Assembly (NCBI RefSeq): GCF_000275865.1 | Contig: NZ_CM001555.1 | Location: 680,827-744,826 of the forward strand | Reading direction: 5' to 3' | DNA length: 64,000 bases | From: Methanofollis liminatans DSM 4140 | GTDB taxonomy: Archaea > Halobacteriota > Methanomicrobia > Methanomicrobiales > Methanofollaceae | Shown: piece by piece, positions 2,773 to 14,061 of the stretch | How positions within the stretch are numbered: the first letter of the stretch is position 1 | Layout of the letters: the number at the start of each line of letters is the position of its first letter | Position numbers and translations under genes: made by a program | Notes under the pieces: generated by a model | Database searches by the model: none | The model's input: the letters and a program-made list of their open reading frames with translations, nothing else | Told to the model about the DNA's origin: nothing

Positions 2773-4065
2773 TCAGGGGCTGACCGGGTCCACGACCCGC
2801 CCCATGAAGAGAATTGTTCCGGTGTCGTTGTCCAGGATCGCGAATATGAATGGGTGATCGGCCCTGAAGGTCGGCGTCTCGTCTCCTTCAAGGGAGGTCT
2901 TCAGGTTTATGATCACCCCGGTGGCGGCGGCTGCCTCAGTGCCCTCTTCGTTCACGTCCACAAACGCCTTGTGGACGACCCTGCTGACAAAGAGGTTCTG
3001 TGTGCCGTCCATTCCCGAGAGGTCGGCGGCGTCGGTGAAGGCGGTCGGCATCCCCATCGCCGCAAGCGTCCCGGCCAGCGGGTATGTCGTCTCAAGCGAG
3101 AATTTCGGGAAATAGACGTTCACGCGCCGCTCGGTCAGGGATTGCCGCAGATCGTCAATCTTCTGCGCGTCGAGCGACTCCTCGGCTGCCTCTATTTCGT
3201 CGGGGAGGATGACGAGCATGGAGAGGCCCGTCCCGCTCTCGTGGGTATAGGGCATCTCGAGCACCTGGAGGGTGTTGGTCTCCGCGTAGCCATACACGGC
3301 TTCCTCGTCGGTCCGCTGCATCATCGGGACGAGCACGCTCTCGCCCGGTCCTTTCCTGAACTCCGCCTCGACCGTCTTGTTCTCATCGAACTGCTTCACC
3401 CACGTCCCCTTGAAGTAGATGGCGTTGGTGATCACCAGTCTGGTCAGTGGACTGATGGATCCTTCGGGCAGCAAATCCTTGATCAGGTCGTTCGTCCTCT
3501 CCTCCACCCACCGGTTGATCGTGATGCGCGAAGCCTCGGGCTGGGTGGTGAAGTCGAGGTTGGTGACGTTTGCAGAGTAATAACGTCCGGCCGTTTCGAT
3601 GTAGTCCTGGAGGAAGGGGTAGGTCTCCTCAGCCCACAGGGCGTTTGCCGTCCGCAGGGTGTAGCCGGAATCTTCGCTGTTGATGCCCGCATCGATCGCC
3701 AGAAACCCTTCCCGTCTGGCGGTGTCGTCTACCGGGAGATGGAAGACCGCCCTGATCTCATCGGCGGTTCTGCCGCGGGCGCCCTCGTAGGTGATCGCGA
3801 GGGCAGATGAGATGCTGTAGGGCGAGAAGAAGAGGTTTTCTTCCGCGTACGCCGGATCGTTTCTCAACTCCTGATACAGGTCGAAGGCGAACCGGTTGTT
3901 TCCGGCGGCCACGCTGTCATTTCCCCCGGCCTCCGGGATATCCTCCCCGGCCGGAGGCGTGGGCTCCGGAGATGCCGCATCCTGAACCCCGGTGCATCCG
4001 GCAAGGACTGTGGCGATGACAACCACCGATGCCAGGAGCACGAGGCCGGCACGATTGTGTTTCAT
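2773..4065 (-). CDS. Lipoprotein serpin (serine protease inhibitor)
   Basis: I place the start at the ATG at 4065 (MKHNRAG), because it opens a lipoprotein signal with the lipobox LAGC at residues 21-24. A longer frame begins at 4131 and adds 22 residues lacking signal character. The remaining protein is a full serpin: FAFDLYQELR, NLFFSPYSISSALAITYEGA, the VITNAIYFKGTW shutter region and the C-terminal HPFIFAILD segment. The reactive-centre hinge EEGTEAAAATG (about residues 373-383) matches the inhibitory consensus, small residues at P12-P9 included. Counting from the hinge puts Lys389 at P1, which would suit a trypsin-like target. The protein is probably tethered outside the membrane by its lipid. 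Archaeal serpins are rare. Confidence 0.9.
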   Translation of the reverse strand: MKHNRAGLVLLASVVVIATVLAGCTGVQDAASPEPTPPAGEDIPEAGGNDSVAAGNNRFAFDLYQELRNDPAYAEENLFFSPYSISSALAITYEGARGRTADEIRAVFHLPVDDTARREGFLAIDAGINSEDSGYTLRTANALWAEETYPFLQDYIETAGRYYSANVTNLDFTTQPEASRITINRWVEERTNDLIKDLLPEGSISPLTRLVITNAIYFKGTWVKQFDENKTVEAEFRKGPGESVLVPMMQRTDEEAVYGYAETNTLQVLEMPYTHESGTGLSMLVILPDEIEAAEESLDAQKIDDLRQSLTERRVNVYFPKFSLETTYPLAGTLAAMGMPTAFTDAADLSGMDGTQNLFVSRVVHKAFVDVNEEGTEAAAATGVIINLKTSLEGDETPTFRADHPFIFAILDNDTGTILFMGRVVDPVSP

Positions 4066-4188
4066 GCCCGCTCTTTTGGCGTGCTGATAGATATCTCTGG
4101 CGTTCACTACGAATTTTTTCGAAGGTATCACTTTTGATGCGTCCGTATATCTGGGCGGTTCTGCTGGAAAAAAGATGGGGCCCCGGGA

Positions 4189-4980: not shown

Positions 4981-5193
4981 CGTGGGATCTTATCTGGTTG
5001 GATATTAATGATTTGTCATTTTTATTCGTGATAGATTTGTGTACGGCGGCCTCCCCCAACTCGACTGAGTGCTATCGTCTTTGTGGGGGCCGATCTCCGG
5101 GAGGAGATTGGCGGGCATCAGCACGGGGAACCTTTCCGGTGAAATGACGAGGGAAAACACGTTCGTGCGGAAGAAACTGAAGCAAGAGAACAG

Positions 5194-5208
5194 GATGCTG
5201 CTATGGGG
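5194..5208. repeat. attL core of the integrated element (15 bp direct repeat)
   Basis: GATGCTGCTATGGGG here is identical to 13816-13830, which overlaps the 3' end of the tRNA-Glu gene. The remnant includes the acceptor 3' strand and the start of the T arm, but no tRNA is encoded on this side. The integrase gene starts 62 bp inside this boundary, the usual arrangement for tRNA-targeting archaeal elements. Confidence 0.85.
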
Positions 5209-5270
5209 TATTCAAACAGGACGTTTGTGTTCCAAATAATTATTTACCCTTGTACAACCACTGATCAATC

Positions 5271-6530
5271 ATGGCGCGAGGGGTACGATCAGGGAGTGCG
5301 TTTCACCGGACCGATGCGACGTACACCCGACAGGGCACCGAGATGATTGAGAAGGCCGTGGTCGAGGGGCGGATCACCCGCGATGATGCGGACCTGATCA
5401 CCTTGTTTCTTGCCGAACTATCGGCAGCGGGCCGGGGAATATGCGCGAGCCGGCGGTATAAAATAACGGTCCACGCGTGCGCACTCCGCCGATGGCTCCC
5501 GCCGTTCCGCGAGGCGACCTATGCCGATCTTCTGCGGGCGGTGGAGTCCGTCAAGACGGCGACGAAGGCAAACGGCGAACCATACGCGAAAAACACGATT
5601 GCCGATATTGTCCGAATCCTCCGCCGTCTGTTCATGTGGATGGGTGAAGAGGGGTTCACGGAGATCCCGGCGGAGAAGATCCGGCGAAAGATCCGGCCGC
5701 CGCCCTATCAGCGTGTGACGAAGGGAGTAGATGACGTTTTGACCGAGGATGAGATCCGGCGGTCGATCGAGGCGTGCCGGACCACAAAGGACCGGGCTTT
5801 GATCAGCGTTCTTTATGAAAGCGGAATGCGGATCGGGGAACTCGCAGCCCTCCGGTGGCGCGATATTGAGTTTAACGATTGGAACGCCGCCCTATCGACA
5901 GACGGCAAAACCGGAATCCTTCGGTATATCCCGCTGATCCTCGCACGGGGCGATCTTGCAATGTGGCGCGGCCAGTACCCGGGCGACCCTCGCGGCGACG
6001 CCCTGGTGTTTCTCACCGAGCACACACACCAGCCGCTGCAGTACGCGGGTGTCGTGAAGCAGATCAAGGCGATCACAGTGCGGGCCAGGATTGAGAAAAA
6101 AATCACGCCGCACTTGTTCAGGCACTCGCGGATCACGCACCTGGTGCAGCAAGGCGTGTCGGAATCGGTGATCAAGTTGATGATGTGGGGCAATTTGCGC
6201 ACCGATATGCTTGAAACATATCTTCACCTGCGAAAAGACGATATTTCAAAGGCAATGGCGACATTGAACGGTGTTGAGACGCCGGACACATCAGACGCGG
6301 TTTCGCCCCTCGAACCGAAACAATGCCCGCGGTGCAAGCGGATATGGCCCCCGGATGCCGGGTGGTGCATGGCCTGCGGGCTTGAACTGACCGAGGCCGC
6401 GGCGGACGAAAAGGCGCGGTTGAAGGCCGAGGCCATAGAGTTTGTAGAACTTGCAACCGAGCACCCCGATCTGATGCGGGAGGTTCTCGACGAGATGCGA
6501 TCACGTCGCGCCACATCGGTTGTGAAGTGA
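5271..6530 (+). CDS. Tyrosine recombinase/integrase with C-terminal zinc ribbon
   Basis: This 419-residue phage-type integrase has a SAM-like N-terminal core-binding domain (about residues 40-150) and a catalytic domain. Arg187 lies in ESGMRIGEL, the box II His-x-x-Arg in HLFRH (281-285), a Trp at the third His/Trp position (306) and the nucleophile Tyr317 in LETYLHL. All key residues are present, so it should be active. A zinc ribbon follows the catalytic domain (Cys352, 355, 366 and 369 in CPRC...CMAC), then a charged helical tail. The gene starts 62 bp from attL, and an AT-rich TATA-like stretch at about 5236-5248 precedes the ATG. It presumably recombines the tRNA-Glu 3' end with the element's attP. 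Confidence 0.93.
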   Translation: MARGVRSGSAFHRTDATYTRQGTEMIEKAVVEGRITRDDADLITLFLAELSAAGRGICASRRYKITVHACALRRWLPPFREATYADLLRAVESVKTATKANGEPYAKNTIADIVRILRRLFMWMGEEGFTEIPAEKIRRKIRPPPYQRVTKGVDDVLTEDEIRRSIEACRTTKDRALISVLYESGMRIGELAALRWRDIEFNDWNAALSTDGKTGILRYIPLILARGDLAMWRGQYPGDPRGDALVFLTEHTHQPLQYAGVVKQIKAITVRARIEKKITPHLFRHSRITHLVQQGVSESVIKLMMWGNLRTDMLETYLHLRKDDISKAMATLNGVETPDTSDAVSPLEPKQCPRCKRIWPPDAGWCMACGLELTEAAADEKARLKAEAIEFVELATEHPDLMREVLDEMRSRRATSVVK

Positions 6531-6576
6531 CCGCATCGAGGGAGATCACAGGGCGGTGGGAGATGGTGGGCGGAGA

Positions 6577-7113
6577 TCATTGATTTTCTTTTTTGGCCCG
6601 CTGTGCTGCCTTTCGACACTTTTCATTCGAACAATATTCCGCATCCGAACGGACTGAAACAAATTCCTGCCCGCACCATTTGCAAATTTTATGATGCCTG
6701 CCGGCTTCTCTGACTACTTGCCGTGCTTGGCGAGCCCACTTTTTTTTTAGGGTTCGTAGTTCGGATCGATAGTATGTCTCACATTGTGAAGTAGTGATCA
6801 CGGTGGGGTGGGAGAGAAGTTTTAGGGCTTTTACAGAACGGTATCTATCTCCTAATGTGCTGTGGTTTTCTCCCACGTTATAACCCGGATCTTGCCGAAT
6901 CCACTTTCCATCTGAAAGAAACGCGTGGTTTTCTACAAATATCTTGTAAATAGCCGCCTGATGTTCTACAAGCAACTCACTTTTGAGATCTTGATATTCG
7001 GGGCGGTCAAAATTGTTTTCATAGTTTTTTTTGAGAAGTTCCCGGTAACGTCCGTTACACGCGCGTATCTGCTCGAAGATAAACGAGGAGGGTTGATCGT
7101 CTATATTATTCAA
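6577..7113 (-). CDS. Element protein with C-terminal zinc finger, function unknown
   Basis: The 178-residue protein is mostly charged and helical. It ends in CKWCGQEFVSVRSDAEYC followed by a fourth Cys five residues on (Cys-x2-Cys-x12-Cys-x4-Cys), then a basic tail, AAQRAKK. This looks like a treble-clef or FCS-type finger used for nucleic-acid binding. The base composition is more AT-rich than the flanking genes. It is transcribed against the integrase, and its promoter region faces that of the HTH gene at 7187. I do not recognise the N-terminal two thirds. A role as element repressor or replication accessory is speculation. Confidence 0.7.
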   Translation of the reverse strand: MNNIDDQPSSFIFEQIRACNGRYRELLKKNYENNFDRPEYQDLKSELLVEHQAAIYKIFVENHAFLSDGKWIRQDPGYNVGENHSTLGDRYRSVKALKLLSHPTVITTSQCETYYRSELRTLKKKWARQARQVVREAGRHHKICKWCGQEFVSVRSDAEYCSNEKCRKAAQRAKKENQ

Positions 7114-7186
7114 TGTCCCAGATAATAAATCTCATCTCTCATATAAAGATGTTTCTATTAATCACATCGAAACGCCACTAAATTGT

Positions 7187-7447
7187 ATGGCAATTACAGA
7201 GTTGCTGTACAACGCTGTCGACGCCGGCGCGATCCTGTGTGCCTCACCGCAAACTGTGGGGCGTTGGATTCGTTCTGGTGAACTCAGGGCAGTGAAAATC
7301 GGTCGCCGCTGGAAAATCAGGGAGTCTGATCTGGAGGCATTTATTGAAAAAATGGACCACGACACCGGGAGGGGTAAGCAAGCGCCAACTTCCGCCCCCT
7401 TCCCCGGCCACCGACACGCCCCGCAGATGGGGGTGACGGATGACTGA
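7187..7447 (+). CDS. Excisionase-family helix-turn-helix protein
   Basis: Residues about 10-55 form a MerR/excisionase-type winged HTH: ILCASPQTVGRWIRSGELRAVKIGRRWKIRESDLEAFI. This is the classic pattern in which a helix pair reads DNA and the G-x-K-I-G-R-x-W-x-I wing follows. The protein is 86 residues long with a disordered tail. In integrative elements such proteins steer the integrase toward excision or control copy number. The gene opens a run of tightly overlapping plus-strand genes. A TATA-like sequence, CATATAAAG, lies about 45 bp upstream near 7140. Confidence 0.8.
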   Translation: MAITELLYNAVDAGAILCASPQTVGRWIRSGELRAVKIGRRWKIRESDLEAFIEKMDHDTGRGKQAPTSAPFPGHRHAPQMGVTDD

Positions 7448-7649
7448 TCAATCTGCTCAGCGCGGCAAAGAAACCATCGCCATCGGCCGCCGAATGAAGA
7501 TGAACGGATGCGGCAGGGTGCCGGTCTACAGCCGGGCGGCGTATGAGGCGATCTGCAAGGAAAGCCCGTTGGAGGGTGCAGCCATCGCGGTAATGGAGCG
7601 CCGCGGGATGATCATCATTCGCGAGCGAGAGGCGCAAAAATGCGAGTAG
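7440..7649 (+). CDS. Small element protein, unknown
   Basis: The 69-residue protein overlaps the HTH gene by 8 bp and the next gene by 10 bp, which implies translational coupling. The segment GCGRVPVYSRAAYEAICKE and an Ile/Arg-rich end (RRGMIIIREREAQ) are visible, but I recognise no family. Overlap on both sides and high GC codon use typical of the element support it as real. Confidence 0.6.
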   Translation: MTDQSAQRGKETIAIGRRMKMNGCGRVPVYSRAAYEAICKESPLEGAAIAVMERRGMIIIREREAQKCE

Positions 7650-7984
7650 AGCAGTGCCAGCCACCCGCCCCAGGACAGCAAGCACCGGACAACGCCCACA
7701 TGGGGATTGCCTTAAATATGACAAGGGCGCGCAAATATAAAAACCCTTCTGCGATGTGGTGCGCACCGGGCGGGCTCCCGCTCATCTTCGACGAACTTCT
7801 TCGACGCCTCCAGGGGCACATCGACGACCTGACCGATGACGAGTTCGAGGTCCTCGAATTCCTGTCCCGGCGGGGACTCGGGATGACGCCGCCGCCATTG
7901 TCGAGGCGGGCCGCCGCTCTCCTTGATGCAGATGTGCGAGCCATGCGGTGGATCCTCTACCGCGGCGGGGAGGGGTGCGAATGA
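7640..7984 (+). CDS. Small element protein, unknown
   Basis: The 114-residue protein lies between coupled genes: it overlaps its upstream neighbour by 10 bp, and its TGA shares bases with the next ATG at 7981. The central part (LIFDELLRRLQGHIDDLTDDEFEVLEFL) is acidic and helical and resembles a short helical domain or winged-helix start. No catalytic motif is seen. The true start could be one of the internal Met residues (positions 21 or 27), because the first 20 residues are proline-rich and low in complexity. Confidence 0.55.
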   Translation: MRVEQCQPPAPGQQAPDNAHMGIALNMTRARKYKNPSAMWCAPGGLPLIFDELLRRLQGHIDDLTDDEFEVLEFLSRRGLGMTPPPLSRRAAALLDADVRAMRWILYRGGEGCE

Positions 7985-8880
7985 CCCCCAAGCCGCGATC
8001 CTCTCTGGGGCCGATCCCGCTCATCGACGGGATCAGCCTAACGATCGCCGCCGAGCGCGATCGGTGGATATCGACCTTCACCAGGGGCGAGGAAGTGATC
8101 GCCGAGGAGCGCAGCAAGACGCCGCCGTGGGCCGGGCGATACGCTGCCGGGCGGCTTACCAACGTGGTTTGTACCGCTGTACCGCTGGACAAAAAGACGG
8201 TAAGGGCGGCAATCATCAAGATCTTCGAGGCGATTGAGGGGTCCGACGACGCCCAGGCACTGGTCTCCGAACCAGCTGCACGGGTGATCGGTGAGACGGT
8301 GGCGGTCCGGGTTGAAGTCTGCGACCCCCCGGTCTATCTGATTGACTTAGAGCAGGGGAAGAGCATGGCCTTCACAGCGCGGGATGTCGCAGCCCACGCC
8401 CCGATCGCCCTGAACACGCGATGGCTCTCCGTACACCCCCGGGAACCCCTGGGCGCATCGGGTCGAGACTTCGAGACGGTGATCGACTTTTGGCTCTCGA
8501 TCGCCGAGGAGGTTGAGCCCGCCGGGAGCGTCTCGCCGTGGGAGTCAGTCGTTGAACGTCTCCAGATCAGGATCGCCCCCCTTGAAGCCCCTCAAACTCC
8601 TGATGGCCTTATAAAGGGCGGGATCTACCAGGAGCCAGGCGGCCCCTTGTGGATAAGCGGGCGGCTGGTCGGGGACGTGCTCAAGGACTCGGGCCGGAAT
8701 GAAAACGACGCGGGGTTCTCGAAATACCTCCAGGCCGCCGGGCTCCTGGTATGCCCGTCACAGCCCAAACGACTCGGGAGGATGTTGATCCGCGCCTGGG
8801 GATTCACGCCAGACTTCCGGCCGGATGATCCGAAGGTGTCCGACTTCAGTGATCTGACCGCTGAGGAGGTGGCGCCATGA
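7981..8880 (+). CDS. Conserved-looking element protein upstream of helicase, unknown
   Basis: I start this 299-residue protein at the ATG at 7981, whose ATGA overlaps the previous stop. A start 33 bp upstream is possible but would overlap more. The N-terminal half is a mixed alpha/beta domain (IDGISLTIAAERDRWI, GRYAAGRLTNVVCTAVPLDKKTVRAAI). The C-terminal 90 residues (GIYQEPGGPLWISGRLVGDVLKDSGRNEN...KYLQAAGLLVCPSQPKRLGRMLIRAW) resemble a winged-helix module of the sort found at the end of plasmid replication proteins. That resemblance is my inference. It lies directly before the origin-like repeats and the helicase, so a replication-initiation role deserves testing. Confidence 0.6.
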   Translation: MTPKPRSSLGPIPLIDGISLTIAAERDRWISTFTRGEEVIAEERSKTPPWAGRYAAGRLTNVVCTAVPLDKKTVRAAIIKIFEAIEGSDDAQALVSEPAARVIGETVAVRVEVCDPPVYLIDLEQGKSMAFTARDVAAHAPIALNTRWLSVHPREPLGASGRDFETVIDFWLSIAEEVEPAGSVSPWESVVERLQIRIAPLEAPQTPDGLIKGGIYQEPGGPLWISGRLVGDVLKDSGRNENDAGFSKYLQAAGLLVCPSQPKRLGRMLIRAWGFTPDFRPDDPKVSDFSDLTAEEVAP

Positions 8881-8883
8881 CCT

Positions 8884-8977
8884 GTTACGCGTTACACGTT
8901 ACGCGCCCGCGAGCGATCATGCATGTGCGAAATCGCACATTGTGCATTTCCACCCGTAACACCCGTAACGGTGTAAC
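8884..8977. repeat. Origin- or operator-like cluster: GTTAC iterons around a perfect palindrome
   Basis: GTTAC occurs at 8884, 8891 and 8898 with an exact 7 bp period (GTTACGC, GTTACAC, GTTACGC). Its inverse GTAAC occurs at 8956, 8965 and 8973. Between the two arrays lies a perfect palindrome with ATGTGCGA/TCGCACAT arms and a 2 bp centre (8923-8940). An AT-rich stretch (AAATTTAAGG, about 8979-8988) follows. The arrangement is typical of a plasmid origin or an autoregulated Rep promoter and sits in the only sizeable gap of the replication operon. Confidence 0.6.
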
Positions 8978-9061
8978 AAATTTAAGGGGATCGCGAGATT
9001 CCTCTTTGTGCCGAACGGCTCTTCGTTCCTCTCTCACGTGCGATGGATGGGGGCCGATCCG

Positions 9062-10795
9062 ATGACTGCCGACCTGATCCGGTGGAGGGGTGGCCCCGGG
9101 GCCGGCAAGAGCACGACCCTGATCGAGTTCTGCCGAGCCGAAGTATCAGCGGGCGCAGCGATCGGCGACATCAGCGTGATGACCTTCTCCCGCGCCCAGG
9201 CGTCCGACCTGGCCCGACGCCTTCACGAATTGGTCTTCCTGGACGCCGATCCAAAGACGATCTCGCGGATGTGCGGCACGATCCACGCCTGCGCCCTGCG
9301 TCAGTGCATGGCCGCCGGTCTGATTGAGGACCCGCGGGAGCAGGTGATAACCGTCACCTCCCGGCGGAAGGCCCCGATCTATGAAGAATTTATGGCAGGG
9401 CACGGTCTCGCCTTCGACCCGACGATCGGCGCCGAGGACGACGCCCCCAGCCGTGCTGATCTCCCGGTCGGCAACCAGGTGATCGCCCTCGCCGCGTACC
9501 TGACGGCGACCATGCGCCAGCCCGACGAGTGGCGGGTGGCCGCCACCGCCCTGGGTCTTGCGGCCCAGCCGCAGATCTGGCCGTTTTCTTACTACATAAC
9601 CGCATGGCGGGATTACAAGGCCAAAAACGGGCTCTTCGAGCACGAGGACTATATACGCCTGGCCCTCGTTCACAGACTCCCGCCCCCCGCCTCGATCCTC
9701 GTCGTGGACGAGTACCAAGACGTTTCACCCGCACAGGATGCCCTGATCCGATCGTGGATCGAACACCCTGAGACCAAGCGCGTGTACGTTGCGGGAGACC
9801 CCGATCAGTCGATTTATGGATTCCGGGGATGCAACCCGCGCCTCTTCCTCGCCATCAACGCCGAGGACCGGGGGGCAACCGGCCCATCCTCCCGCCCCGT
9901 CTCGCACCGCTGCCCGGTATCGGTCATGGCCGCCGCCGAGTCGATCCTCAACCGCCCGGCGAACGTCTCCCCGTGCATCCGTCGCGGGCAGGTCCATCAC
10001 GTCCAGCCACCGGATGCCGACGCCCTCGCCCGGCAGGTGGAGGAGGCGATCCGGTACGCCCGGACCCTCCCGGGAGAGCGGCAGCCGGTCTTTGTCCTCT
10101 CGCGCTACCAAAAGACCGGCCAGGCCCTCGCCCGCGCTCTCTCGGCCGCCGGCGTCCCGTGCAGCAGTATCAAGCCCGGCCGGGTGCGGTTCTGGAGCCG
10201 AGTGAGGATCGGCCGGGACCGGGCACACCTCGAAACGACAACGGTCAGCCCATGGACCCTGAAACAGGCGATCACCCGGTATCTCGCGGGGTCTTCTGCC
10301 ATCGACCCGGCCCCGGTCCCGACGATCGAGGCCGAAACCATGATCCTGGCCACCCTCACCGACGCGAAGCGGACCGACGCCCTCGCCGCCCTGCGGCGCT
10401 TGAAGTCAAAGCGTGAGCCGGTCCGCCTGGGCGACGTGTACGCATGGACGGGGGGCCACCTGCGGGACGGGATATTCGACGCCCTGAACCTCCGCCCCTG
10501 GATCGTCCGGGAGATCCGTGCATGTCTCACCCTCGAGCAGCGCCGAGGATACGAGATCCCCCCCGATATGGTGAAGATCGACACGATCCACGCCGCGAAA
10601 GGTCTTGAGGCGGCGGTGGTGCTCCTTCACACCGGATTCCAGAAAAAACGCCTCGATGACCTCACCGACCCGGACCGCCTCGCCGAGGAGCGGCGGGTCT
10701 TTTATGTCGGTGCGACCCGAGCCTCTCACGCCCTCCTCCTCCTGGACTACGGCGAAACGCCGGTCTGTCCGTTCCTTCGAGGGGTGGGGGCATGA
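9062..10795 (+). CDS. SF1 (UvrD/Rep-like) DNA helicase
   Basis: From the ATG at 9062 the protein has 577 residues. In-frame GTG 9008 and ATG 9047 would extend it slightly, and the GTG could be leaderless relative to the AT-rich box near 8980. Superfamily 1A motifs appear in order: Walker A GGPGAGKST (10-18), Walker B VDEYQD, motif III GDPDQSIYGFRG, motif V IHAAKGLEAAVVLL and motif VI ERRVFYVGATRA. It should unwind DNA with ATP, probably 3' to 5', during replication of the element. It is shorter than cellular UvrD, with reduced insertion subdomains. The next gene, a primase, starts in its stop codon, so the two are translationally coupled. Confidence 0.88.
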   Translation: MTADLIRWRGGPGAGKSTTLIEFCRAEVSAGAAIGDISVMTFSRAQASDLARRLHELVFLDADPKTISRMCGTIHACALRQCMAAGLIEDPREQVITVTSRRKAPIYEEFMAGHGLAFDPTIGAEDDAPSRADLPVGNQVIALAAYLTATMRQPDEWRVAATALGLAAQPQIWPFSYYITAWRDYKAKNGLFEHEDYIRLALVHRLPPPASILVVDEYQDVSPAQDALIRSWIEHPETKRVYVAGDPDQSIYGFRGCNPRLFLAINAEDRGATGPSSRPVSHRCPVSVMAAAESILNRPANVSPCIRRGQVHHVQPPDADALARQVEEAIRYARTLPGERQPVFVLSRYQKTGQALARALSAAGVPCSSIKPGRVRFWSRVRIGRDRAHLETTTVSPWTLKQAITRYLAGSSAIDPAPVPTIEAETMILATLTDAKRTDALAALRRLKSKREPVRLGDVYAWTGGHLRDGIFDALNLRPWIVREIRACLTLEQRRGYEIPPDMVKIDTIHAAKGLEAAVVLLHTGFQKKRLDDLTDPDRLAEERRVFYVGATRASHALLLLDYGETPVCPFLRGVGA

Positions 10796-11997
10796 CCGAA
10801 TGGAACGCCCTCATGGAAGACGTCTGTCGTTTCTATGAGCAGCACCTGACCGACGAGCACCGGGCCTTTCTCCTCACCCGGTACGGATTCCAGCCGTGGT
10901 TTGTGGAGCGTTCCCGCCTCGGTTACGCCCCGGCAGACAGTAGTACGGCCCTCCTCCTGCACCTGATGGACCGGGGGTATAGCGGCGAGGAGATCATCGC
11001 TTCCGGCACGGTGGGCCGGTGGACGAAGGGCGGCAAAACCGGCGTTGGCGACCTCTTTCGGGGCCGGCGCGTGTTCCCTTACCTGGATGGTGACGGGACG
11101 CCAGAATACTTCACCGGCAGGCAGACCGACGAGACCCCAGCGTATGGCGACCGGGAGCCGGCGAAGTACGTGAAGCAGATCGTCACGGAGACCGGCCCGA
11201 AAGAACCGATCTTCGGCCGATGGTCGGTCATCGACGGCGAACCGCTGATTATCACGGAGGGGATCAGCGACGCCCTCGCGGTGCTGCAGGACTGCCGGCC
11301 GTGCATCTCGCCGGTGACAACCTCCTTCAAGCGTGTGCGGATCGACGAGGCCGCCGCGTACTGCCGCCGGGCCGGTGCGGTCTATGTGATCATGGACAGC
11401 GAGGAGAGCGGGGCCGGGCCGAAGGGTGCGACAAAGACCGCCCACGCCCTCCTTGCGCATGGGATCGAGCGGGTGTATATCGGGACGCTGCCGCGGCCCG
11501 ATGGGATCGAGAAGGTGGATCTCAACGACTATCTCAGGGGCGGGGGCGACCTTGCCCCGATCCTCGCCGAAGCAATCCCAGCCGGCGAGCACCCGGGGGT
11601 GCAGGAGGAAAGGCGGCAGGAGATCCTTGCCGGGTGTGCCTCCCTCCGGTCCGCCGTCTCTCAGGAACGGTGGAAGAGGAGCGGGAAAAAGAAAGGCAAT
11701 ACGGACGACATCGACGACCTGAAACGCCGCATGCCCTCCCTCTCCGCCTATACCGGCATCGCCCCAGGGAAACGGGGGCCTCACCCGGTCTATGGATCGA
11801 CGCACGGCGACAACTTCGCCGTATCGAGAGACGGCGAGACCTGGACCTCTTTCCACGGCGGGAACGAGACCGGGAAATCAGGGAACCTGTTCAAACTGAT
11901 CGCCCTGGAACAGCGGTTCCTCTCCGATGAGGGGCAGCCCCTCAGGGGCGAGGCGTTCAAACAGACGATCGCATACTGCCGGGAGAGATGGACGTGA
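10792..11997 (+). CDS. TOPRIM-domain primase-like protein (DnaG/TWINKLE type)
   Basis: The 401-residue protein overlaps the helicase stop (ATGA). The middle holds a TOPRIM fold: Glu156 in ITEGISDAL, the acidic pair at 202-204 in VIMDSEESG, and KVDLNDYL near 242-248. These are the metal-binding positions of DnaG-type primases and phage primase-helicases. The N-terminal part (residues 1-140) resembles the DnaG-like RNA-polymerase core. No obvious CHC2 zinc motif is present. The C-terminal 100 residues include a domain with GETWTSFHGGNETGKSGNLFKLI. Together with the upstream helicase it makes a self-sufficient replication module for the element. Confidence 0.78.
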   Translation: MTEWNALMEDVCRFYEQHLTDEHRAFLLTRYGFQPWFVERSRLGYAPADSSTALLLHLMDRGYSGEEIIASGTVGRWTKGGKTGVGDLFRGRRVFPYLDGDGTPEYFTGRQTDETPAYGDREPAKYVKQIVTETGPKEPIFGRWSVIDGEPLIITEGISDALAVLQDCRPCISPVTTSFKRVRIDEAAAYCRRAGAVYVIMDSEESGAGPKGATKTAHALLAHGIERVYIGTLPRPDGIEKVDLNDYLRGGGDLAPILAEAIPAGEHPGVQEERRQEILAGCASLRSAVSQERWKRSGKKKGNTDDIDDLKRRMPSLSAYTGIAPGKRGPHPVYGSTHGDNFAVSRDGETWTSFHGGNETGKSGNLFKLIALEQRFLSDEGQPLRGEAFKQTIAYCRERWT

Positions 11998-12068
11998 TCC
12001 TTAATATTATGTCCTAACAAATATATTAAGAATCGACGATGATCATCGATTGGGCGCAAAAAAGGGGG

Positions 12069-12428
12069 TTATTCCGAGCCCCGGATCCTCATGATCGAGA
12101 AGATCACCAGGGAGAGGATCGAGACCATGACGGCGAGAATCAGAAGCGCCGAGTTCTGCGTCCAGATTTCGACGCCGGTCGTCATATCGGCGTTTGTGGT
12201 CGAGTTCCACTGAGAGCCCGCCGGGATCGTGACGGACGAGTCAATGTTCGACCCGATAACCGGGGCGATGGAGAAAACCGCGACGAGCACGATGAGCCCG
12301 ATCGCCATGCCGATAACGGCGTCGATCATGCCGACCGCGTCGTCGTTCAAGAGGATCGCGTTCTGTTTTTCGATCGCCCGCGCCTTGATGGCGACGAGGG
12401 CAGTTAATACCGTTTTTGCAGTTTCCAC
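12069..12428 (-). CDS. Two-TM membrane protein, possible virion or pilin-like component
   Basis: The start is GTG at 12428, with GGAGG about 13 bases upstream. The 119-residue product has a charged amphipathic N-terminus (ALVAIKARAIEKQNAILLNDDAVG), a first TM helix (about 36-58, IDAVIGMAIGLIVLVAVFS), an exposed loop rich in Ser/Thr/Asn with two NST-like glycosylation sites, and a second TM helix (about 94-112) with a short basic tail. It is transcribed alone and divergently from the HTH gene at 12529. The layout could suit a small membrane capsid or spike protein, a pilin-like subunit or a holin-like protein. I cannot assign a family. Confidence 0.65.
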   Translation of the reverse strand: METAKTVLTALVAIKARAIEKQNAILLNDDAVGMIDAVIGMAIGLIVLVAVFSIAPVIGSNIDSSVTIPAGSQWNSTTNADMTTGVEIWTQNSALLILAVMVSILSLVIFSIMRIRGSE

Positions 12429-12528
12429 TTTGTCGGTGATGCCTCCGATATATTCCTATATAGACATTGTAGTAGATATTTGTTTCTGTGGCATTGTTAT
12501 ATAACACTTGGGAGAAATATACATTTGT

Positions 12529-12969
12529 ATGGAGAAATTACCAAACATCGACATTGAAACCCGGGCAGTCGGGGACGTTATCGCCCACCTCCGCCGTGCC
12601 GGTATGACGACCCCGACGATCGAAAAAGTCCTTCAGAGCGTGGCGTGGGTTTGCGACGTCCGGGCTTTCAAATTTCACGATATTGTGGTGGGCGAGTACG
12701 CCAAGGTCATGGAAGGCACCATCCCCGCCGATGTTGCATTCGATCGGATCCTGCTCACGTTTCGACTCCCCGACCGCGACGTCCACGTGAGTGCTGAGGA
12801 GGCCGAACTAATGCGGGGCTTCCGGGCGGCCGGTTACTCTGTTCGGAAAATTTGTGCCGTGTTCGATCGATCTACCGAGACGGTGCACCGTCTGACTGCC
12901 GATGTGGAGACTCCTGCCAAACAAACACCTGAAACACTCTCGGCCTCATCAGAAGCGATCTATGGTTAG
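12529..12969 (+). CDS. Element HTH protein, putative regulator
   Basis: I start at the ATG at 12529. TTATATAAC at about 12497-12505 lies 25 bp upstream, so a leaderless transcript is likely. The 146-residue protein has a C-terminal segment (LMRGFRAAGYSVRKICAVFDRSTETVHRLTA, about residues 84-114) with the spacing of a resolvase-type or sigma-like helix-turn-helix. The N-terminal half is unassigned. It is divergent from the two-TM gene, and a shared intergenic region of about 100 bp could be its operator. Confidence 0.65.
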   Translation: MEKLPNIDIETRAVGDVIAHLRRAGMTTPTIEKVLQSVAWVCDVRAFKFHDIVVGEYAKVMEGTIPADVAFDRILLTFRLPDRDVHVSAEEAELMRGFRAAGYSVRKICAVFDRSTETVHRLTADVETPAKQTPETLSASSEAIYG

Positions 12970-13027
12970 AAGTCGAAATTTTTTTCCAGCCCGGCCTGAG
13001 AGCGATCGCAAACCTGAAAAGGAAGCG

Positions 13028-13369
13028 ATGGGGTCCCACATGAAAACACATGCACAACAAACAAAGGCCGGCCGGCGCAACTATGGCCAGAACTATCAGC
13101 GCGGCCGCGGGGCCGAGGGGAGAGCAGCTGCGATCCTTCGCCGTGATGGGTGGAGCGTGAACATCTCCCCGGGAAGCCGGGGATCCGCCGACCTGATCGC
13201 CCGGAAGGGTACGCGGGTCCGGCGCATCCAGGTAAAAGCGATCGGCAGCCGCGACATCCGCACTGTAGAGGCCGCCCGGCGGCGGGTGCAGGGCAAACCC
13301 TTCAACGTCTCCCGCGGCCGGGAGGTGTGGCTCTATAGCGCCGGGACATGGTACCGGTTCACTACATAA
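13028..13369 (+). CDS. Hjc/restriction-endonuclease-like nuclease (PD-(D/E)xK fold)
   Basis: The chosen ATG at 13028 has AAAAGGAAG just upstream. The longer frame starting at 12902 overlaps the preceding gene and lacks support. The 113-residue protein matches the archaeal Holliday-junction resolvase or Mrr-like plan: NYQRGRGAEGRAAAILRRDGW with the catalytic Glu, SPGSRGSADLIARKG with the catalytic Asp, then RRIQVKAIGSR providing Gln-x-Lys. Hjc cuts four-way junctions. In an element of this size it could resolve recombination or replication intermediates. Its final residues, WLYSAGTWYRF, look complete. Confidence 0.8.
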   Translation: MGSHMKTHAQQTKAGRRNYGQNYQRGRGAEGRAAAILRRDGWSVNISPGSRGSADLIARKGTRVRRIQVKAIGSRDIRTVEAARRRVQGKPFNVSRGREVWLYSAGTWYRFTT

Positions 13370-13557
13370 TCTCTAATGTGCGGACAATACCAATACCTAT
13401 TTTTGGGTTTTATCTATGGGTATGATGAATCCCATATGGTGTTATGGTGAAGGCCAATAGGGGCAATCTATACTCTTCAAAAATCGCTTATTTCTGATCG
13501 GGGTGATCGCGCCGACAGGGTGATAAAGTCGCGGGTGCGATCGCAGGGTGACGATGA

Positions 13558-13707
13558 TCAGATCCCGGGATCGCCCTGGAATGATCCACACACCGGGCAC
13601 CACCAACCCACACCCACCCAGGCGCGCTTACCTTCGACCTGCCGGCGCACACTGGCCCGGTACATCCGGCCCGCGCACCGCGTGCAATGGGTTTCGTCCT
13701 CTCGCAT
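13558..13707 (-). CDS. Small zinc-ribbon protein of the element
   Basis: The reverse strand from the ATG at 13707 encodes 49 residues, starting MREDETHCTRCAGRMYR and ending with WWCPVCGSFQGDPGI. The two Cys-x2-Cys pairs (8/11 and 37/40) define a zinc ribbon. TTTTTAAATACC, a good archaeal TATA box, lies about 24-35 bp upstream, which places the transcription start at the ATG and suggests a leaderless mRNA. It is the last gene before attR. Such mini-ribbons are frequent in archaeal plasmids and viruses, but none is assigned a function here. Confidence 0.65.
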   Translation of the reverse strand: MREDETHCTRCAGRMYRASVRRQVEGKRAWVGVGWWCPVCGSFQGDPGI

Positions 13708-13815
13708 GGTATACCATTATTTCAGAACGGTATTTAAAAACATCACCCTTATTTTCATGGTGACAGAGGGCCGGAAGGACCCCGTTTCAAAATTGGAACA
13801 CAAACAACCCGTTTA

Positions 13816-13830
13816 GATGCTGCTATGGGG
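13816..13830. repeat. attR core (15 bp direct repeat of attL)
   Basis: The sequence is identical to 5194-5208. It covers the two bases after the tRNA-Glu discriminator, the acceptor 3' strand and the first bases of the T-arm 3' strand, so integration restores a complete tRNA gene on this side. Confidence 0.85.
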
Positions 13831-13892
13831 ATTCGAACCCCAGTCGCAGGAGTGAGAGTCCTGCATGATTGGCCGGTCTACACTATAGCAGC
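13818..13892 (-). tRNA. tRNA-Glu (anticodon CTC)
   Basis: The 75 nt gene on the minus strand folds with acceptor stem GCTGCTA/TAGCAGC and discriminator A. The D arm is GTGTAGACCGGCCAATCAT, the anticodon stem-loop CAGGA-CTCTCAC-TCCTG (anticodon CTC) and the T arm GGGGTTCGAATCCCC. CCA is not encoded. Its 3' end is the integration target of the element at 5.2-13.8 kb. A TATA-like TTAAATACG lies upstream (about 13930-13940). Confidence 0.95.
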
Positions 13893-14061
13893 AATGCGCA
13901 CCTGAGTGCTCTACAATATTGGATATGGACGTATTTAACCATTCCTCTCTGCGCAGCCCGATCAGGCGCCGCCCGCCCCATCGAGATCGGCGACGCGCAG
14001 AACCAGAATGCGGTTCCCTATCCACGATCCTTATGTAGTCAGGCTTACAGATCTATGAGGA

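Follow-up and report, generated by a model that had tools for sequence, protein, structure and literature searches.

A putative 8.6-kb integrative replicon with plasmid and virus traits at a tRNA-Glu gene of Methanofollis liminatans

A stretch of 64,000 nucleotides from Methanofollis liminatans DSM 4140 (contig NZ_CM001555.1, positions 680,827 to 744,826), hereafter referred to as the window, harbours at positions 5194-13830 an integrated element, probably an intact integrative replicon of 8.6 kb that is a hybrid of plasmid and virus. A preliminary description made from the letters of the DNA had called it an integrative plasmid or small virus. The evidence speaks for plasmid-type replication genes accompanied by one putatively virus-derived gene; a packaging-type ATPase, adhesins and the other genes of the related virus-like cluster are absent. 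For the Methanomicrobiales, it offers a replicon that is complete and open to testing. Its family shares a replication module in which an origin can be proposed, and through the coat-like gene plasmid-type replicons are linked with a virus-like cluster of this order that is itself undescribed. The predicted features are listed in Table 1; genes are referred to by their lowest coordinate.

Table 1. Features of the element and related loci (window positions unless a genome or contig is named)
Feature	Position	Strand	Basis
attL core, 15-bp direct repeat GATGCTGCTATGGGG	5194..5208		repeat search; empty site in G010
Inverted-repeat arm (partner 13793-13814), probable integrase-binding site	5214..5235		joined ends
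Tyrosine integrase, C-terminal zinc-ribbon-like tail	5271..6530	+	Pfam PF00589 5e-23; XerA-like; phrog_1
178-amino-acid (aa) protein, C-terminal zinc-finger-like motif, convergent to integrase	6577..7113	-	weak zinc-finger-type PHROG matches
Excisionase-like HTH_17 protein	7187..7447	+	PF12728 4e-14; TIGR01764; 82% identical in G002 element A
69-aa protein	7440..7649	+	no Pfam family
114-aa protein	7640..7984	+	no family in library searches (Pfam, PHROGs and others)
Conserved 299-aa protein, proposed replication initiator	7981..8880	+	43-50% identical in four related loci beside helicase; ~30% in a fifth, G119
Candidate replication origin: three GTTAC and three inverted GTAAC around palindrome TGTGCGAAATCGCACA (8924-8939)	8884..8977		repeat count
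UvrD/PcrA-like superfamily 1 helicase	9008..10795	+	PF00580 2e-19; PF13361; phrog_1967 2e-48
DnaG-like primase (DNAG_N + TOPRIM)	10792..11997	+	PF08275, PF13362; relatives on haloarchaeal plasmids
Two-helix hydrophobic protein, family resembling spindle-virus coat proteins (His1 ORF21/VP21)	12069..12428	-	homologues; His1 comparison; dN/dS ~0.14
Helix-turn-helix (HTH) protein divergent from coat-like gene, probable regulator	12532..12969	+	weak HTH_38/HTH_23; same divergent pair in G002 element A
PD-(D/E)XK / Hjc-like nuclease (weak)	13040..13369	+	PF11645 1e-4, Hjc 0.04, both below cut-off
49-aa zinc-ribbon protein, right end	13558..13707	-	83% identical in G002 element A; similar gene, same place, in G119 element
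Inverted-repeat arm, partner of 5214-5235	13793..13814		inverted-repeat comparison
attR core inside tRNA-Glu	13816..13830		repeat search
tRNA-Glu(CTC), integration target, intact	13816..13893	-	right repeat copy = tRNA 3' end
Sister modules	same genome 986660-989589; G011 122867-125749; G002 1836204-1839157		
Cluster contigs, Methanomicrobiales metagenome-assembled genomes (MAGs)	L062 1-16255 (JAGVUK010000141.1); L063 1-8064 (JAQWDG010000066.1)		

Boundaries and integration site

The two ends of the element are marked by the sequence GATGCTGCTATGGGG, of which exactly two copies exist in the 64 kb; a third copy with at most one mismatch was not found within the window (shuffling expectation 0). 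Counting one copy of the repeat, the mobile unit measures 8,622 bp. In the congener G010, the sequence corresponding to the left flank (5136-5193) joins an uninterrupted tRNA-Glu directly and thus represents an unoccupied site, and in G011, whose flanking DNA is 91-97% identical, the tRNA-Glu is present without the element. Joining the ends places the 15-bp core between inverted arms of 22 bp, with 19 of the 22 positions complementary (86%) and 13 bp perfect, and these arms are probable binding sites of the integrase. The exact boundaries claimed in the preliminary description are borne out by the direct repeats and, independently, by the empty site in G010, the element-free tRNA in G011 and the inverted arms. 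The same holds for its statements on the identical repeats and on an intact tyrosine integrase (419 aa), which begins at 5271, 62 bp inward of the left copy. The G+C content of the element (60.0%) does not differ from that of the flanks (59.7 and 62.3%).

The G011 locus carries about 2.9 kb of different genes downstream of the tRNA-Glu. These (L037 6230-8917) look by eye like permease, flavin-reductase and methyltransferase genes and lie beside the same tRNA-Glu, where the window has none of them; a second repeat copy was not seen beside them.

Archaeal integrases preferentially target the 3' ends of tRNA genes (PMC8371274). As the empty sites show, the integrase recombines the 15-bp core at the 3' end of the tRNA-Glu(CTC) gene such that the tRNA stays whole, and the HTH_17 protein probably aids excision. 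The integrase and the excisionase-like gene are intact, and both products pass the curated Pfam cut-offs, as do the UvrD-like helicase and the DNAG_N and TOPRIM domains of the primase. Recent activity of the element, as suggested in the preliminary description, is compatible with the intact genes, the identical repeats and the absence from close relatives. Three weaker homologues of the integrase are encoded in the same genome, where a 12-bp tandem repeat array (CCCCGGAAGTCA; L039 7948-8151) was also observed beside another integrase. Comparison of the spacers of clustered regularly interspaced short palindromic repeats (CRISPR) with the element gave short scattered matches only.

Replication module and related elements

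The region between the 7981 gene and the helicase gene is rich in repeats, with six of the 31 copies of GTTAC/GTAAC present in the 64 kb falling within 94 bp around a 16-bp palindrome. The corresponding intergenic region of related elements is repeat-rich too, carrying a GTTACACCC-like repeat in L128 and a TGTCACACC-like repeat in L114, while L038B and L113 have palindromes of the kind GCACGAAAACGTGC. We infer that 8884-8977 is the origin, with the 7981 protein as its initiator. This protein has no relative in Pfam, and a profile search of the PDB gave nothing credible. Judging from the anatomy of the module, the excised circle would replicate from the repeat-rich region, with initiation by the 7981 protein, unwinding and priming by the element's own UvrD-like helicase and DnaG-like primase, and a polymerase supplied by the host. 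The replication module had earlier been described as self-contained, which is apt for the primase, the helicase and the probable initiator; a DNA polymerase, however, is missing.

Among 232 genomes of the class, a search at the DNA level found the helicase-primase module elsewhere in the same genome and in G011, G002, G009, G098 and others. In the full module, the 7981-type gene is followed by the intergenic region rich in repeats and then by the genes for the UvrD-like helicase and the DnaG-like primase. By sharing it, the element is a member of a family of integrative replicons of the Methanomicrobiales that is defined here. A complete sister element of 13,407 bp with the same gene order occupies a tRNA-Thr(CGT) gene in G119. 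It is bounded by 20-bp repeats (L128 248-267 and 13655-13674), the right copy of which ends the tRNA, and encodes in succession an integrase, the 7981-type protein, the helicase, the primase, three further proteins and a zinc ribbon beside the tRNA; one of the three genes following the primase is common to the virus-like cluster discussed below. Complete as well is an 8,083-bp element of G002 (element A), with 18-bp repeats at 2690 and 10773 in L038. Its replication gene differs, being of the D5/DUF5906 type, and it has in common with the window element the excisionase (82% identical), the coat-like gene, the divergent HTH gene and the zinc ribbon.

Further elements were observed around these loci. 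The window's own genome holds a second element of the same replication family without the coat-like gene (G000:C1 982657-989589, L041). In G002, the 8,083-bp element with the coat-like gene adjoins, in tandem, one with the 7981-helicase-primase module (L038 2690-17161). The chromosome of G119 has three related elements (L128 248-13674, L129 and L130), all encoding a membrane protein of 278 aa. Towards its C-terminus this protein matches the virus-like cluster, whereas its outer domain differs, as if the ectodomain had been swapped. A 701-aa protein of the G119 element and a 924-aa protein of L062 appeared alike by eye; this relationship was rejected as the similarity was not significant. When viral contigs were scanned, no relatives came up for the primase, the cluster ATPase, the 7981 family or, with either of two alignments, the coat-like family.

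Five genes (6577, 7440, 7640, 7981 and 12069) had earlier been considered to have no recognisable family. This stands for 7440 and 7640, and 6577 has weak zinc-finger-type PHROG matches; 7981, in contrast, represents a conserved undescribed family and 12069 a small family resembling spindle-virus coat proteins. The 49-aa zinc-ribbon gene at the right end had been overlooked in the earlier gene list. To the left of the element, at 2773-4131 of the window, lies an open reading frame (ORF) with a serpin-like sequence, as judged by eye.

Coat-like protein and the virus-like cluster

The 12069 protein has 119 aa with two hydrophobic helices, and its homologues are confined to G002 and two MAG contigs, one from a Methanomicrobiales MAG (L062/L077) and the other from a Methanoregula MAG (L063/L078). 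The gene is under purifying selection, as judged from a ratio of nonsynonymous to synonymous substitution rates (dN/dS) of about 0.14 between the window element and the G002 element. Homology of the family with spindle-virus coat proteins is likely, although not proven. The comparison was made with ORF21 of the virus His1, which we take to be the coat protein VP21. The L063 member matched it in BLASTP at 9e-6 in a single pairwise comparison, the family as a whole gave an hhalign E-value of 4e-4 with a probability of only 36%, and shuffles preserving the helix/loop composition gave z-scores of 5.9 (L063) and 6.5 (L062), with 0/300 shuffles reaching the observed value in each case. A PDB profile search with the 12069 protein found nothing credible. 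The SSV1 proteins VP1 and VP3 were rejected as homologues because the similarity was not significant, and a pilin identity was rejected as less likely because of the conserved second hydrophobic helix at the C-terminus. A possible operator, the palindrome GTTATATAAC, lies in the stretch between the coat-like and divergent HTH genes (12429-12531), which also contains TATA-like sequence.

In both MAG contigs the coat-like gene lies in a syntenic cluster of at least 11 genes, whose products include PKD/DUF2341 adhesin-type proteins, a membrane-anchored protein of 278/274 aa, a P-loop ATPase and several unknowns; a second two-helix protein is encoded next to the coat-like one. The ATPase has matches among PHROGs labelled DnaA-like and resembles SSV1 B251 (hhalign probability 93%, E 3e-7), with a weaker match to His1 ORF16. 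No relative of the cluster was found in the phage and viral-contig collections searched, and it is possibly an undescribed lineage of spindle-shaped viruses. The B251-type ATPase is a core gene of the Sulfolobus spindle-shaped viruses (PMC9608457) and, together with the coat protein, forms the minimum gene set shared in Nipumfusiviridae (PMC12451623). Searches with Pfam and PHROGs detected no such ATPase in the element, the whole genome was likewise negative, and 5194-13830 contains no attachment or adhesin ORF.

Alternative explanations and known systems

An intact integrative replicon, carrying in 12069 what is presumably a virus-derived coat-like membrane protein of the spindle-virus type, is the explanation favoured here. 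Several points weigh against it. Excision and replication are predictions, and the initiator role of the 7981 protein is read from its position and the adjoining repeats only. The 12069 protein itself compares weakly with His1 ORF21 (z 2.6), phage records gave no tblastn match to it, and its AlphaFold model is poor (pLDDT 64, three helices) and gave nothing in fold searches. The most likely place of the 12069 product would be the membrane, where it is exposed, or particles made with the help of another element, rather than particles built by this element alone. The latter possibility leads to a satellite of a spindle-shaped virus, self-replicating, packaged by a helper related to L062/L063 and contributing its own coat variant, as in the case of pSSVx with SSV2. 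Retention of the coat-like gene in two independent complete elements of about 8 kb without ATPase and adhesins favours such a satellite; yet there is no resident helper, the cluster ATPase and the cluster 272-aa gene being absent from all 12 genomes of the host genus, and pSSVx carries an ATPase, the reverse of the situation in the window. It is unlikely. Rather unlikely, too, is a new kind of archaeal satellite, in which an integrative replicon with its own coat variant would hijack a spindle-shaped virus of methanogens to obtain the remaining particle components, with smaller particles or interference with the helper as possible outcomes.

The lone virion-type gene, divergent from an HTH regulator, could alternatively be the remnant of a decayed provirus or a coat gene captured by a replicon and used in the host, for example in excluding related viruses, and in the G119 elements, too, this replication module is accompanied by a single gene of the virion cluster (278 aa). 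The same gene-poor layout with intact genes is, however, found in two complete elements; random decay of a provirus was rejected as unlikely because of this second element, and the explanation as a whole is considered quite improbable. An autonomous very small virus forming particles from the 12069 protein alone would agree with the combination of a coat-like protein, an integrase and replication genes, and with the identical repeats. It is very improbable, because the element lacks the ATPase and adhesins and the genus lacks the ATPase and the 272-aa gene; a minor virion protein is absent as well, the related clusters have about 11 conserved genes, and the genomes of His1 and SSV1 measure 14.5 kb and 15.5 kb, respectively.

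As a plasmid-type replicon, the element resembles four small haloarchaeal plasmids whose primase is related to its own, being 31-34% identical over 70-97% of the length (Halomarina, 10.8 kb; Halorubrum p13, 14 kb; pFA-1, 18.3 kb; phalar02, 23.7 kb). A site-specific integrase is annotated on three of them. Unlike in the element, the primase region of at least three of these plasmids lies inside one very large ORF, and their hosts are Halobacteria; their annotation names no coat-like gene, no search for one having been made. In His1 (Halspiviridae), the two-helix protein ORF21 has the region of the S-x-W-N-S and (I/L)-W motifs in common with the 12069 family, whereas His1 is linear, 14.5 kb in size and encodes PolB and a full virion set. 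A major capsid protein and a lipid-modified capsid protein are known from His1 (PMC4728574, PMC4284463). SSV1 and the Fuselloviridae are integrative, like the element, and SSV1 has two small two-helix coat proteins (VP1 and VP3); its B251 ATPase resembles that of the related clusters and has no counterpart in the window element.

Among methanogens, the first classified spindle-shaped virus was recognised only in the 2025 round of the International Committee on Taxonomy of Viruses (PMC12451623). Methanosarcina spindle-shaped virus 1 (Eurekaviridae), a methanogen spindle virus, has two copies of the coat protein (PMC12451623), and the L062/L063 clusters likewise hold two adjacent two-helix genes. 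A close parallel to the element may be the fusellovirus satellite pSSVx, likewise a plasmid-type replicon with spindle-virus gene(s) and an incomplete virion set (PMC4027180, PMC9608457). In contrast to pSSVx, which has B251 and A154 homologues, the element has a coat-like gene, no B251-type ATPase and no known helper. If the coat-like protein does enter particles, methanogens would possess a satellite system of plasmid and virus that parallels pSSVx/SSV2 of Sulfolobus.

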